A stretch of DNA of 64,000 nucleotides from Oceanococcus sp. HetDA_MAG_MS8 (lineage in GTDB: Bacteria; Pseudomonadota; Gammaproteobacteria; Nevskiales; Oceanococcaceae). The translations under genes were made by a program, and so were the position numbers. The stretch covers positions 186,001-250,000 of the forward strand of contig JAHCMK010000001.1 in NCBI GenBank assembly GCA_019192445.1. The letters run 5' to 3'. Positions 21,881 to 38,518 of the stretch are shown here, in pieces (within the stretch, counting starts at the first letter, position 1; each line of letters opens with the position of its first letter). Below the pieces are notes generated by a model. That model made no database searches, was not told the DNA's origin, and was given only the letters and a program-made list of their open reading frames with translations.

Positions 21881-21967
21881 TGGTGCCGGGAAGAGGACTT
21901 GAACCTCCACAGGGTTTCCCCTACTAGAACCTGAATCTAGCGCGTCTACCAATTCCGCCACCCCGGC
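21881..21967 (-). tRNA. tRNA-Leu (CAG)
   Basis: The reverse strand reads GCCGGGGTGGCGGAATTGG at the 5' end, the class II layout with a long variable arm, and the 3' CCA is encoded. The anticodon stem CTAGA/TCTAG holds the loop TTCAGGT, giving anticodon CAG (complement at 21931-21933), which reads CUG leucine codons. The T arm is GAGGTTCAAGTCCTC. The length is 87 bases. It sits between purA and rnr, as in Pseudomonas, on the opposite strand. Nothing integrated is seen next to it. Confidence 0.95.
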
Positions 21968-33355: not shown

Positions 33356-34741
33356 ATGTTCGAATCCCTTTCAGAGAATCTCCAGTCCACCCTTAAGAAT
33401 CTGCGCGGCCAAGGCAGGCTTACCGAAGACAATATCGCCGACGCCCTGCGCGCCGTGCGGCGGTCGTTATTGGAGGCGGACGTTGCCCTGGAAGTGGTGC
33501 GGGATTTCATTGCCAAAGTCCGCGAACAGGCGCTGGGAGAAGCCGTCCGCAGCAGCCTAACTCCAGGTCAGGAGTTCATCTCCATTCTGCAACGTGAACT
33601 GGTTCAGGCATTGGGTGGTGAGTCCCAAGGCTTGGATCTACGCGCCCAGCCGCCAGCAATTATTCTGCTGGCCGGTTTGCAGGGTGCGGGTAAAACCACC
33701 AGCGCCGGCAAGCTGGCGCGTTACCTCCATGCGCAAAAGAAGCGTGTGCTCATGGTCAGCGCCGACGTTTATCGCCCGGCAGCCATCGAACAGCTGGCCA
33801 CTTTAGGGCAGCAGTTGCAGATCGATGTGCAGCCCTCGTCGGCGTTGCAGGCACCCAGTGCCATTGCTGATGAGGCTTTAGAGCGAGCGAAGCGCGAGTT
33901 CTATGATGTTTTGATTGTGGACACTGCCGGCCGGACCAGCATCGACGAAAAGATGATGGCGGAGATTGCCGGTCTGCATCAGCAGCTGGCGCCGGCAGAA
34001 ACCTTGTTTGTGCTGGATGCCATGACTGGCCAGGATGCGGCGCGCACCGCGCAGGCCTTTGACCAAGCGGTACCCTTGACCGGGGTGATTCTGACCAAGG
34101 TGGATGGCGATGCACGGGGTGGTGCGGCGCTGTCGGTACGCCATATCACCGGTAAGCCCATCAAGTTCTTGGGCGTGGGTGAAAAACTCGAAGCCCTGGA
34201 GGCCTTCCATCCGGACCGCTTGGCCTCACGCATTCTGGGTATGGGCGATGTGCTCAGCCTGATTGAAGAAGCCGAGCAGAAAATTGACCGGCAGAAGGCA
34301 GAGAAGCTGGCCCGCAAGCTGCAAAAAGGGGGTGGCTTCGATTTAGACGACTACCGCGACCAGCTGCTGCAGATGCAGAAGATGGGCGGTATTGGCGCGA
34401 TGATGGATAAGCTGCCAGGGATGGGGCAACTCCCTGCGCAGGTGAAGAACCAAGTGAACGACAAAGAGTTCATGCGCAATGTGGCCATCATCAACTCCAT
34501 GACCAGGCAAGAGCGCCGTTTTCCAGCGGTGATCAAAGCCTCGAGGAAAAAGCGGATTGCTGCCGGCTCCGGAACGCAAGTCCAGGACGTGAACCGCTTG
34601 CTCAAGCAGTTCACGCAGATGCAGGGCATGATGAAAAAAATGCGCGGTGGCGGCATGAAGAAAATGATGCGGGCCATGGCTGGGCGCATGCCTCCCGGCA
34701 TGATGGGGCCAGGTGGTCCTGGCCGCCCTGGTGGCTTCTAA
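33356..34741 (+). CDS. ffh: Signal recognition particle protein Ffh
   Basis: Ffh binds signal sequences of nascent membrane proteins and docks on FtsY. The 461-residue protein has the N domain (MFESLSENLQSTLKNL), the GTPase motifs GLQGAGKTTSAGKLA, DTAGRTSIDEKMM and TKVDGDARGG, and the methionine-rich M domain with SGxxxxV-type RNA-binding helix (AAGSGTQVQDVNRLLKQF) and an Met/Gly tail. I chose ATG at 33356; a start 33 bases upstream would add a non-conserved 11 residues. Confidence 0.96.
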   Translation: MFESLSENLQSTLKNLRGQGRLTEDNIADALRAVRRSLLEADVALEVVRDFIAKVREQALGEAVRSSLTPGQEFISILQRELVQALGGESQGLDLRAQPPAIILLAGLQGAGKTTSAGKLARYLHAQKKRVLMVSADVYRPAAIEQLATLGQQLQIDVQPSSALQAPSAIADEALERAKREFYDVLIVDTAGRTSIDEKMMAEIAGLHQQLAPAETLFVLDAMTGQDAARTAQAFDQAVPLTGVILTKVDGDARGGAALSVRHITGKPIKFLGVGEKLEALEAFHPDRLASRILGMGDVLSLIEEAEQKIDRQKAEKLARKLQKGGGFDLDDYRDQLLQMQKMGGIGAMMDKLPGMGQLPAQVKNQVNDKEFMRNVAIINSMTRQERRFPAVIKASRKKRIAAGSGTQVQDVNRLLKQFTQMQGMMKKMRGGGMKKMMRAMAGRMPPGMMGPGGPGRPGGF

Positions 34742-34757
34742 GCAGGCCGCACACTTT

Positions 34758-34780
34758 GAGCGAGCCATGCTCGCTTTCTT
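34758..34780 (+). terminator. Terminator after ffh
   Basis: AGCGAG and CTCGCT flank a five-base loop and run into TTTCTT, 18 bases after the ffh stop. The stem is short (6-7 pairs), so the call is moderate. The next gene starts 25 bases further on. Confidence 0.5.
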
Positions 34781-34804
34781 GTATTGACGAACTAGAGAGT
34801 CACA

Positions 34805-35281
34805 ATGGATTTATTGGCTTTGTATGCCCGTATGAGCAAAGTCCCAGGGGGCAAGGCGGCGTTTTCAAAAATGGTGGCCTTGAAGGCGCCCTATTTTCGG
34901 ACCGTGAGCCCAGTGTTGGAAGAGCTGAGTGCGCAGCAAGTTCGCGCGCGCTTGCGCAAGCGCTGGTCGGTAACCAATCACATCGGCACAGTGCATGCCA
35001 TTGCTATGTGCAACCTCGCCGAGTTCACTGGTGGTTTACTCACCGAGGTGGCGTGTCCGCCAAGCGCCCGTTGGATTCCCAAGGGTATGCAGGTGGAGTA
35101 CTTGGCCAAGGCCAACACCGACCTGGTGGGCACAGCGCAGTTCCCGGCTGATGTGGACTGGAGTGTGGCGCAGACGGTTGCTGTTCCGGTCGAGGTGTGT
35201 GACCGGGAAGGAACCCCCGTTTTTCGGGCCAGTATCGATATGTACTGCAGCCCTAAGCCCGCGGCGTCCAAGGCCGCATAA
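34805..35281 (+). CDS. DUF4442 hotdog-fold protein
   Basis: This 158-residue protein matches the DUF4442 family of hotdog-fold proteins, related to acyl-CoA thioesterases. The segments KRWSVTNHIGTVHAIAMCNLAEFTGG and WIPKGMQVEYLAKAN are characteristic; NHIGTVHA carries the helix-facing residues of the fold. There is no signal peptide. The substrate is unknown. The ATG at 34805 has an AGAG-like site upstream. A strong terminator follows about 90 bases after the stop. Confidence 0.85.
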   Translation: MDLLALYARMSKVPGGKAAFSKMVALKAPYFRTVSPVLEELSAQQVRARLRKRWSVTNHIGTVHAIAMCNLAEFTGGLLTEVACPPSARWIPKGMQVEYLAKANTDLVGTAQFPADVDWSVAQTVAVPVEVCDREGTPVFRASIDMYCSPKPAASKAA

Positions 35282-35369
35282 GGCTCGCATTCCATCGGAG
35301 ACAGCCTGATTGGCACGCGGTTTGCTACATCGAGTCTGTCTCCCTGGTACGTTGATCGTGCCAATTTTG

Positions 35370-35411
35370 AGAGGGAAGTGCTTAAGGATTGAGCACTTCC
35401 CTCTTTTTTTT
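35370..35411 (+). terminator. Strong intrinsic terminator after the DUF4442 gene
   Basis: AGAGGGAAGTGCT (35370-35382) pairs perfectly with AGCACTTCCCTCT (35392-35404) around a 9-base loop, followed by eight T. This is a textbook intrinsic terminator. Confidence 0.92.
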
Positions 35412-35446
35412 GCGAGAACCGGCGAGGAGCTGCCCACCTTCCGTAT

Positions 35447-35599
35447 GCGCGTGTTGGGCCGTCGGGCTCGCTACCCTTGGCGCCGCTGCGCGGTGTCCTT
35501 CGGCACCAAGGCCGAACGCGATCCCAACGGCCCAACACGCGCAGGGAGCCTCTCTGCGCCGTCCGTCCCGCGAAGCGGCGCGGGGGACACAGGCGCAGA
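35447..35599. other. Strongly folded intergenic region
   Basis: GCGCGTGTTGGGCCGT (35447-35462) pairs exactly with 35527-35542, a 16-base-pair stem. The enclosed 64 bases hold a smaller hairpin TTCGGC-ACCAAG-GCCGAA with flanking CGCG/CGCG. Next, TCTGCGCC (35553-35560) pairs with GGCGCAGA (35592-35599), enclosing GTCC/GGAC and CCCGCG/CGCGGG stems. No coding frame here looks real, and there is no tRNA or rRNA feature. It could be a structured RNA or a REP-like extragenic element. Confidence 0.55.
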
Positions 35600-35683
35600 C
35601 TACGCCGCCAGGCGTTCGGGCCCTAGGCCATAAAGCCCGTTCCAGCTTCCTCTAGTCGGCATAGGATGTTGATAGGGGCGTTC

Positions 35684-38518
35684 TCAGTATCCGCGCTCGA
35701 GGATGGGCTTTAGGTAGTGGCCGGTGTGCGAGTTGGGATTGGCCGCTACCTCTTCCGGGGTGCCAGTGGCGACGATCTGCCCGCCGCCTGCACCGCCCTC
35801 GGGCCCCAGATCGACCAGCCAGTCTGCCGTCTTGATGACATCCAGATTGTGCTCGATAACCACCACCGTATTGCCGTGGTCGCGCAAGCGATGCAGCACC
35901 TGCAGCAATTGCTCCACGTCATGGAAGTGCAGGCCGGTGGTGGGCTCATCCAGGATGTATAAGGTTTTGCCTGTATCGCGCCGCGACAGCTCCTTGGCGA
36001 GCTTGACGCGTTGTGCCTCACCACCTGACAAGGTCGTCGCGCTCTGGCCCAAAGTGATGTAGCTCAAGCCTACATCCATCAAGGTCACCAATTTGCGCTT
36101 CAAGGCGGGCACGGGGCCGAAGAACTCCACCGCGTCCTCGACCGTCATCTCGAGGACCTCGGCAATGGTTTTACCCTTGTAGCGAATATCCAGAGTTTCG
36201 CGGTTATAGCGGTGGCCCTGGCACACTTCGCAGAGCACATACACATCGGGTAGGAAGTGCATTTCCACCTTGATCAGCCCATCGCCCTGGCAGGCCTCGC
36301 AACGCCCGCCTTTGACGTTGAAGGAAAAACGACCTGGTGTGTAGCCCCGCGCGCGGGCCTCGGGCACGCCTGCGAAGAGTTCGCGAATGCCCGTAAACAA
36401 ACCAATGTAGGTGGCCGGGTTGGAGCGCGGAGTCCGCCCGATGGGGCTTTGGTCAATGCCAATGACCTTATCGAGTTGATCCAGACCGCGAACCTTGTCC
36501 ACTGGTGCGTTGGGTAGGCTGGCTCTATTGAGCTCGCGCGCGGCGATGGGGTAGAGGGTGTCGTTGATGAGGGTGGATTTCCCGCTACCCGACACCCCCG
36601 TGATGCAGATCAGGCAACCCAGGGGTAGCTCTACATCGACCTGCTGCAGGTTGTTCCCGCTGGCGCCCTCAATGCGGAGAACGCGCTGCGCATCTGGAGC
36701 CTGCCGAGGCTCTGGGATGCTGATGCGACGCTCGCCACTGAGATATTGACCCGTGAGCGATGCCGGAGTCTGGATCACTTCTTCTGGCGTTCCCGCAGCA
36801 ACGACTTCGCCGCCATGCACACCGGCCCTTGGGCCAATATCGAGCACATGGTCTGCACAGCGAATGGCATCTTCGTCATGCTCGACCACAAGCACTGTAT
36901 TGCCCAGGTCACGCAGACGCACTAAGGTATCGATGAGGCGTTGGTTATCGCGCTGGTGTAAGCCAATCGAGGGTTCATCGAGTACATACAGCACCCCAAC
37001 CAAACCCGCCCCAATCTGGCTAGCCAGCCGGATGCGCTGAGACTCGCCCCCGGACAGAGTTTCGGCCGCGCGGTCTAGGCTCAGATAGTCCAATCCCACA
37101 TTGTTCAAAAAGGACAAGCGCAGGCCGATCTCTTTGAGCACGGGGCGGGCGATTTCGGCCTGTTGCCCTGGTAATTCCATCTTCTCGAAATGGGCCAGCG
37201 CATCGGCAATGGACATGCGCGATATTTGCGGCAAGGTGCTGCTCGCGACCTGCACAGCGGAGGCAGCCCTGTTGAGGCGACTGCCGTCACAAGCGGAGCA
37301 GGGCTGGTTCGAACGATAACGGGCCAGCTCTTCTCGCACGGCGTCCGATTCGGTTTCGCGATAACGCCGCTCCAAGTTCGGCACAATGCCTTCAAAGGTA
37401 TGGTTGCGGACTTTGCGCCGACCGCGCAGGTCGGGGTATTCAAAGCGAATTTTGGTACGCCCACTGCCATACAAGACCACCTCCCGATGCTTGGGGGGCA
37501 GGTCCTGAAAAGGCATTTCCAGGTCGATGTCGTAATGCTCAGATAAACCTGTGAGCAGCGCGTAGTAATAGGGATTGCGCCGGTCCCAGCCGCGAATGGC
37601 GCCATCAGCCAAAGCCGCTTTGGGATTGGCCACGATGCGGTCGGCATCGAAGACCGAAGTGGTTCCCAGGCCATCGCAGGAGCTACAGGCCCCATGCGGG
37701 CTATTAAAGGAAAACAAACGCGGTTCCAGCTCCTGCAGGGTAAAGCCGCATTCAGGGCAGGCAAAACGCGCCGAAAAGGTATGTTCTTGGGCATCCCCTG
37801 ACGCGCGCCATGGCGCGACAATGGCCAAACCATCGGCCAGACGCAGGGCTGTTTCAAAGCTCTCGGCCAGGCGCTGCGCCTGATCGCTACGCACTTTGAA
37901 GCGGTCGATCACCACATCGACATCATGCTGGGTTTTAGGGTTCAGGCTCGGAAGCTCATCGAGCTCATGGAGTTCGCCATCGACTCGAATACGAATAAAG
38001 CCTTCGGCTCTGAGCTGCTCCAACAATTGGCGGTGCTCGCCTTTACGGCCCCGAATAATGGGGGCCAGTAACATCCAGGCGCTGTCTTCGGGTAGCTGCA
38101 GCACGCTATCCACCATCTGACTCACCGTTTTGGCGGTGAGGGAAATGTGGTGATCCGGACAATAGGGCACACCCACCCGGGCAAAGAGCAGGCGCAGGTA
38201 ATCCTGAATTTCGGTCACCGTACCCACGGTAGAGCGTGGGTTGTGGCTGGTAGATTTCTGCTCAATGGAAATAGCGGGGGATAAGCCTTCGATGCTGTCC
38301 ACATCGGGCTTATCCATCATCGACAAAAACTGCCGTGCGTAGGCAGACAAAGACTCCACATAGCGCCGCTGCCCCTCGGCATAAATGGTGTCGAAGGCGA
38401 GAGAACTCTTGCCAGAGCCAGACAGCCCGGTAATGACAACTAGCTTGTCGCGCGGGATGTCCACGCTGAGGTCACGCAAGTTATGGGTGCGCGCACCGCG
38501 CACGCTAATGGTCTTCAT
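35684..38518 (-). CDS. uvrA: Excinuclease ABC subunit A
   Basis: UvrA recognises DNA damage and loads UvrB in nucleotide excision repair. The 944-residue protein is full length. It has the first Walker [17 protein letters not shown] near residue 31, the zinc motifs CPECGF and CSSCDGLG and [16 protein letters not shown], the second Walker [16 protein letters not shown], and two ABC signatures [12 protein letters not shown] and [12 protein letters not shown] with [12 protein letters not shown] and [12 protein letters not shown]. It is divergent from the MFS gene. I see no LexA box (CTGT-N8-ACAG) upstream. Confidence 0.97.

Follow-up and report, generated by a model that had tools for sequence, protein, structure and literature searches.

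Adjacent hairpins between a DUF4442 gene and uvrA as probable relics of dispersed, outward-paired TwoAYGGAY RNA elements

Introduction

The small RNAs that titrate CsrA or RsmA, namely CsrB, RsmY, RsmZ and RsmW, are encoded by single-locus genes with promoters of their own, and the consensus selected for CsrA by SELEX resembles ACAGGAUGU. CsrA itself is described as a homodimer in which each half binds an RNA motif, its sites being hairpins with a GGA loop (PMC4333381). A family with related features, TwoAYGGAY, was entered in the table of Weinberg 2010 as a probable RNA that is probably not cis-regulatory (PMC2864571), and CsrA binding was proposed for it in a 2014 paper on the basis of motif matches (PMC4333381). 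According to that table and that motif analysis, TwoAYGGAY is one candidate RNA for which a function has only been proposed (PMC2864571, PMC4333381), while the copies reported here form a multi-copy repeat whose paired members face outward. Among the papers listed by full-text searches of PMC, no title or opening of an abstract describes dispersed outward pairs of TwoAYGGAY, and this dispersed, outward-paired organisation of the RNA family is new.

The locus that led to these copies lies in a 64-kb window, by which we mean the whole stretch of DNA analysed (64,000 nucleotides of Oceanococcus sp. HetDA_MAG_MS8). In the gap between a DUF4442 gene and uvrA, a first-pass annotation had pointed to two long hairpins lying side by side, and had offered a structured RNA, a REP/BIME-like repeat or a nucleoid-binding site as possible readings. 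We favour, with moderate confidence, the reading that these hairpins are a decayed, core-less outward pair, one of type A and one of type B, of a dispersed family of Y-shaped, putatively CsrA-binding RNAs homologous to Rfam RF01731.

Results and Discussion

Two stable hairpins behind the DUF4442 terminator

Hairpin 1 starts 34 nt past the terminator of the DUF4442 gene, which has arms of 16 nt that are 94% complementary and a T-run at 35404-35411 (T8 by sequence), and hairpin 2 is found 84 nt from the stop codon of uvrA (Table 1). The arms of hairpin 1, at 35446-35471 and 35518-35543, are 26 nt each and 92% complementary, and the predicted fold comprises 17 perfect outer pairs and two small inner stems; after a spacer of 9 nt, hairpin 2 (35553-35599) is predicted to form 18 pairs with bulges. 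The fold z-score of the region 35430-35610 is -6.2 on the plus strand and -5.3 on the minus strand, with 0 of 200 shuffles equally stable on either strand. In a scan for inverted repeats with arms of at least 18 nt, at most 2 mismatches and at most 60 nt between the arms, hairpin 1 was the sole one of such size across the window, and ten windows simulated with a Markov-1 model contained two inverted repeats of at least 18 nt and none of at least 22 nt. Arms, folds, shuffles and terminator thus bear out the annotated picture of two stable adjacent hairpins after a strong terminator.

Table 1. Positions of genes, terminator and hairpins at the DUF4442-uvrA gap, numbered within the window
Feature	Positions	Strand	Remarks
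DUF4442 gene	34805..35281	+	Pfam PF14539, E 1.5e-48; 3' end faces the hairpin pair
Intrinsic terminator of DUF4442 gene	35369..35411	+	17 pairs, loop of 3; T-run toward the hairpins
Putative type-A Y element relic (hairpin 1)	35446..35543	GGA-sense strand -	outer stem and one side hairpin remain
Putative type-B Y element relic (hairpin 2)	35553..35615	GGA-sense strand +	two-tip core gone
uvrA	35684..38518	-	PF17755, PF17760; convergent with the DUF4442 gene

It had also been claimed that neither coding sequence nor a tRNA explains the hairpins, and this holds: the Rfam scan of the window placed no family, tRNA included, at the hairpins (its sole match being a tRNA at 21884-21967), and the ORFs that cross them occur mechanically, with no support for any as a gene. 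Terminator-like sites in 34700-36000 begin at 34757, 34758 and 35369, none of them at the hairpins, and in the terminator scan neither stem has a T-run directly after it, so that the stems do not qualify as intrinsic terminators. The same interval, scanned for one promoter type, contained no sigma-70-like promoter.

Intact relatives in the same genome

The annotation had proposed searching the rest of the genome for copies and looking for conserved pairing, and both were found. A DNA search with 35430-35640 against the whole genome (3.53 Mb, 20 contigs) gave 44 matches at E<=10, of which the weaker are largely due to chance; the genome holds 18 intact Y elements, 14 of type A (relatives of hairpin 1) and 4 of type B (relatives of hairpin 2). 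Intact elements are Y-shaped palindromes of 165-200 nt in which a long outer stem encloses two adjacent tip hairpins, the loops of which read, for example, ACAGGAYGU and AYGGAC; the two types are about 71-77% alike over 90-150 nt. R1, a covariance model built from 17 elements of this genome, matches it 22 times at E<=0.1, and 18 of these matches are at E<=1e-19.

In an alignment of 13 intact copies of type A, both sides have changed with pairing kept at 20 of 62 pairs, a figure reached by 0 of 500 shuffles. When the partner columns are slid by 1-3 positions the paired cells fall from 95% to 30-47%, a control that is favourable to the structure, whose prediction came from this very alignment. 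Most of the covarying pairs belong to the outer stem, where 13 of 18 covary, and the tip hairpins are the least varied part of the element. Copies exist and their pairing is conserved; therefore the structured-RNA and the dispersed-repeat readings of the annotation are both right. A further alternative, that of chance palindromes or of a nucleoid-protein site special to the DUF4442-uvrA gap, has nothing beyond the hairpins themselves in its favour. Copies elsewhere, homology and covariation count against it, and by the shuffles and simulated windows such hairpins are not expected by chance; we give it practically no credence, the copies elsewhere having already refuted chance.

The window pair as a probable relic

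In the DNA search the best match of hairpin 1 in E value is to another relic of the same genome (E 4.5e-9, 73% over 96 nt), with intact A copies at E 8.4e-9, 5.5e-8 and 1.9e-7. Identity to sequence elsewhere in the genome reaches up to 83% over 53 nt, and against one intact A it is 78.6% over 56 nt and 92.6% over 27 nt; the match of hairpin 1 to R1 is weak (26.3 bits, E 0.05). Hairpin 2 is identical to an intact B copy at 31 of 31 nt (E 4.5e-9) and 88% identical to another over 48 nt, and a separate comparison gave 96.6% over 29 nt; the B relic has no R1 match at E<=0.1. Type-B-like sequence in the window runs from 35568 to 35615. Aligned to intact copies, both halves retain the outer stem and one side hairpin without the two-tip core, and the window copy neither reaches the gathering score of RF01731 nor shows two GGA tips. 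Its order on the RF01731 strand is minus-plus, as in most pairs elsewhere. Judged from these alignments, the window copy is a homologous relic of TwoAYGGAY, and we do not count it as a functional member.

A corresponding change can be followed in two near-identical relatives, G002 and G003, in which an intact pair of G003 faces a G002 counterpart with a clean internal deletion of ~231 nt, by which the remaining halves of the two Ys have become joined. This passage from a full to a reduced pair is a loss of the same kind as that at the window copy. At the DUF4442 orthologues of G001, G002 and G003 no uvrA is found within ~1.5 kb (ffh is present there in G001) and there is no match to R1, a model that could miss a relic like that of the window; the position of the window pair is therefore not common to these three genomes.

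Membership in TwoAYGGAY and distribution

The intact copies match TwoAYGGAY (RF01731), which belongs to CL00106, the clan of CsrA-binding sRNAs. Out of 12 loci scanned, 11 match RF01731 at E<=0.1 and 9 reach the 43-bit cut-off (best 51.1 bits, E 1.2e-5), the matches lying on the strand opposite to the R1 model. An RF01731 search of the own genome yields 14 matches at E<=0.01, all of type A and all over the cut-off. The 4 type-B copies are missing from these genome-search matches; when B copies were scanned directly, two of three passed the cut-off and the third, L046, had no match at E<=0.1. Besides scoring above the Rfam cut-off, intact copies share with the described family the long outer stem closing two adjacent GGA-loop hairpins, the AG linker and the CGG after the second hairpin; they differ in loops that are often one base shorter (AGGAC), and the window copy differs further in lacking the core.

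Matches to R1 occur in 13 of 61 genomes (the own genome and 60 relatives), comprising every one of the 4 in the own family and 9 from a second family of the order. RF01731 is over its cut-off in all 13 of these genomes, which had been picked for R1 matches, against 0 of 14 control genomes. Across the class, at least 23 of 369 genomes match RF01731 at E<=0.001 and at least 15 are over the cut-off, with up to 7 candidates scored per genome. In G003, 5 of 9 element matches fall within 250 nt of the first base of a contig (C96:10-167, C6:240-395, C63:49-200, C55:217-372 and C27:1-63). The element hairpins seem to break assemblies, so that draft genomes may hold more copies than are counted.

Signs of one-strand selection at the RNA level

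Among the alignment rows that include the core, GGA stands in the tip-2 loop in 57 of 57 and in the tip-1 loop in 49 of 57, counts that include weak rows, come from an alignment fitted to the model and leave out 7 of 64 rows (three core-less ones, both matches of L149 and two of the duplicated locus L156). Seven of the eight losses of the tip-1 GGA are in own-genome A copies, and thus affect 7 of the 14 intact A elements. Counted on the RF01731 strand of the 40 elements that measure 140 nt or more (L149, a reduced one, among them), GGA occurs 233 times and TCC 37 times, with an excess of GGA in 40 of 40; this is the most skewed among 32 trinucleotide pairs, and AGG and GAG come next. A G.U pair is tolerated in RNA, and the same site on the other strand reads A.C. 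Single stem mismatches, sought with G.U disallowed and accepted only if present on both strands, amount on the RF01731 strand to 53 G.U and 11 A.C (54:12 with L149). Collapsing them by shared context, a partial correction in that related copies are not fully independent, leaves 39:9 (p 1.5e-5); G045 alone gives 2:2. Were palindromes simply being perfected by mutation, neither strand of the element should be preferred. The three tests (GGA at the tips, the GGA/TCC skew and the excess of G.U over A.C) speak for selection at the RNA level on a single strand.

These asymmetries of G.U over A.C and GGA over TCC are unexpected for a strand-neutral DNA palindrome, and weigh against the possibility that the elements are a REP/BIME-like DNA repeat, that is, palindromes with no RNA role that are moved by a Y1 (RAYT/IS200-type) transposase. 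The copies do resemble such repeats in being intergenic palindromes, many in number and some in inverted pairs; furthermore, the own-genome copies cluster on a tree of elements, own-genome and G001 sites are without a common flanking protein, and ~495 bp are common to three copies. Nevertheless, the elements are much larger and Y-shaped, and Y1_Tnp has no match in 7 of the 13 element-bearing genomes, one of which has 24 RF01731 matches. At 14 Y1 loci of the own genome and 12 others no R1 match was found within ~1.5 kb, although R1 may miss distant elements. REP/BIME repeats with RAYT were set aside as candidates, there being no Y1 association and no elements found to flank a Y1 (RAYT) gene. 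We consider such a transposase-moved repeat quite improbable; of the repeat reading of the annotation, the dispersed repeat stands and the strict REP/BIME does not. The sole Y1_Tnp match of the own genome, L031 (G000:C1:464275-464601), is without an R1 match within ~1.5 kb.

Spread of the copies

In a tree built from 39 elements of five genomes, many forks of which are weakly supported, the copies of the own genome and of G001 group by genome (3 and 2 changes, against shuffled means of 13.2 and 8.3), and those of G002 and G003, near-identical at common sites, interleave. No flanking protein is common to own-genome and G001 sites, and each of three G003 sites fetched has a G002 counterpart. This clustering, together with the flanks, suggests lineage-specific amplification. 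L125 (G000 C5) and L173 (G044 C1:502986-509215, of another family) have the right-hand gene and its neighbour in common at 60% identity; they may be an old shared site, which would speak against purely recent spread.

RVT_1 has no match in 9 of the 13 genomes, among them the own genome, G001, G002 and G003, and the other four have a match; with carriers lacking it, a resident reverse transcriptase is therefore not required, and a retro-element was rejected on this count. Group IIC introns habitually sit at terminator T-runs. Three own-genome A copies (L124, L125 on C5 and L128 on C2) are embedded in a common unit of ~495 bp, the sense strand of which carries 8-10 GGA against 3-4 on the other strand, and in two of the three units the common part starts right at a terminator T-run, as such an intron would. 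Unlike a group IIC intron, the L128 unit has no Rfam intron match, and 9 of 13 genomes have no reverse transcriptase match; group II introns were discarded, no such family being among the matches to the L128 unit (to E 5) or to 12 loci (to E 0.1). An attC-like site was also rejected, the 7-mer in the outer arms standing in reverse order to the boxes of the attC consensus.

Placement behind gene ends and paired geometry

Based on simple gene calls, in which a called ORF spans the element at 9 of 57 sites, the 57 element sites of six genomes lie between convergent genes in 24 cases, between co-directional genes in 33 and between divergent genes in none, whereas 22 of 66 element-free gaps of at least 80 nt at the same loci are divergent (p 3e-7). 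Weak G044 matches, a duplicated site and sites orthologous between G002 and G003 are counted among the 57, and an additional locus, L140, lacked a flank on one side. The own genome alone gives 0 of 18 divergent sites against 8 of 20 control gaps (p 0.003). In a crude scan, 13 of its 18 sites have a terminator of a flanking gene with the T-run toward the element. In genus g2, the model match lies 11-40 nt away from a stop codon at 9 of 10 sites, none of which is faced by a terminator.

Such a placement might suggest a two-way barrier at 3' ends, in which the stems stop read-through or protect the RNA 3' ends of the neighbours and GGA is incidental. Both the lack of divergent sites relative to the control and the g2 sites agree with a barrier, and it is a good fit to the tip-less window copy. 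However, it leaves the GGA in 57 of 57 tip-2 loops and the least-varied tips unexplained, no T-run directly follows the window stems, and a terminator already precedes 13 of 18 own-genome sites. As a full account of the elements we hold it to be unlikely.

Pairs, defined as neighbours within 600 nt among the 109 elements listed, face outward in 25 of 28 cases, being minus-plus on the RF01731 strand; two are plus-minus and one is plus-plus. The outward order holds for three families, namely the own one, the second family of the order and another of the class (G217, G327, G420), so that a transcript entering from either side would traverse one Y in antisense and the other in sense. An outward orientation is also what a central two-way promoter needs, and the pairs could accordingly be divergent sRNA genes with a promoter between the Ys, each giving a CsrA-titrating sRNA. 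The spacers argue otherwise: at 9 nt in the window, ~10-20 nt in L151 and 34 nt in L122 (automatic measurement is noisy, with overlaps in 5 of 9 pairs) they leave no room for two promoters outside the stems, and a central promoter was rejected for this shortness in several pairs. Moreover, as judged by R1 matches, 11 of the 18 intact copies of the own genome lack a partner within 600 nt, and the scan of 34700-36000 covering one promoter type was empty; divergent sRNA genes thus seem to us very improbable.

At an orthologous gap with flanking proteins 98-99% identical, L148 (G002) and L152 (G003) carry oppositely oriented elements with unlike outer stems. Rapid turnover or an inversion could account for this, as could an ancestral pair of which each genome lost a different half.

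A putative role in CsrA binding

A CsrA gene is present in 13 of 13 element-bearing genomes. Given this, the biology of CsrA and the paired GGA hairpins, the intact copies are read as putative CsrA/RsmA-binding RNA elements, which is the reading we prefer; two side-by-side GGA hairpins on one stem would suit one CsrA dimer. We hypothesize that a transcript of the sense strand of an intact element would fold into the long outer stem and the two adjacent GGA-loop tip hairpins, and that the two tips would hold the two faces of one CsrA/RsmA dimer. Because copies adjoin gene ends and the sense strands of paired copies point outward, read-through from either side would carry one GGA-bearing Y, and the dispersed Ys may act as CsrA-titrating or CsrA-recruiting 3'-end elements. 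The window copy, since its tips are lost, should no longer bind CsrA in a two-tip fashion, and would be at most a two-way hairpin barrier behind the DUF4442 terminator.

Several observations temper this proposal. With the tip-1 GGA lost in half of the intact own-genome A copies, the two-site clamp would be weakened there, and as 13 of the 18 own-genome sites face a terminator, read-through must often be low. Against the CsrA reading, the own genome has 8 single sites between co-directional genes, and the sense strand runs with these genes at 3 of them and against them at 5. GGA may also serve another GGA-binding protein instead of CsrA. With CsrB, RsmY, RsmZ and RsmW the elements share GGA in hairpin loops, the Rfam clan and hosts that have CsrA; in contrast to those sRNAs, they are dispersed behind gene ends, some as opposed pairs, and the window pair has no sigma-70-like promoter nearby in 34700-36000.

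A further-reaching version, in which TwoAYGGAY is a mobile or self-spreading set of RNA-selected outward pairs behind terminators and gene ends that clamps CsrA on RNA read through from both sides, is in our view possible but doubtful. If true, repeats would constitute a genome-wide, renewable CsrA sponge moved by some machinery, and tip-less relics such as the window copy would be its fossils. With the family listed in 2010 now seen as a repeated, paired 3'-end element that appears to be selected as RNA on one strand, its role becomes testable, and the present data suggest that CsrA may be titrated by dispersed repeats besides dedicated sRNA genes. The window copy offers a concrete example of how an element may decay into simple hairpins that resemble unexplained palindromes.

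Larger arrangements of the elements

In G045 one pair is present twice with equal scores, at L155 (C1:2306724) and L156 (C1:2314974), ~8 kb apart. At L057, L062, L063, L065 and L077, loci of the order's second family, several elements are seen by eye to lie within longer conserved tails of the AAAGAAAGCACACCC / GGGTGTGCTTTCTTT type and to adjoin a CTTTTCTTTG/CAAAGAAAAG palindrome, the whole having the appearance of a larger composite repeat.
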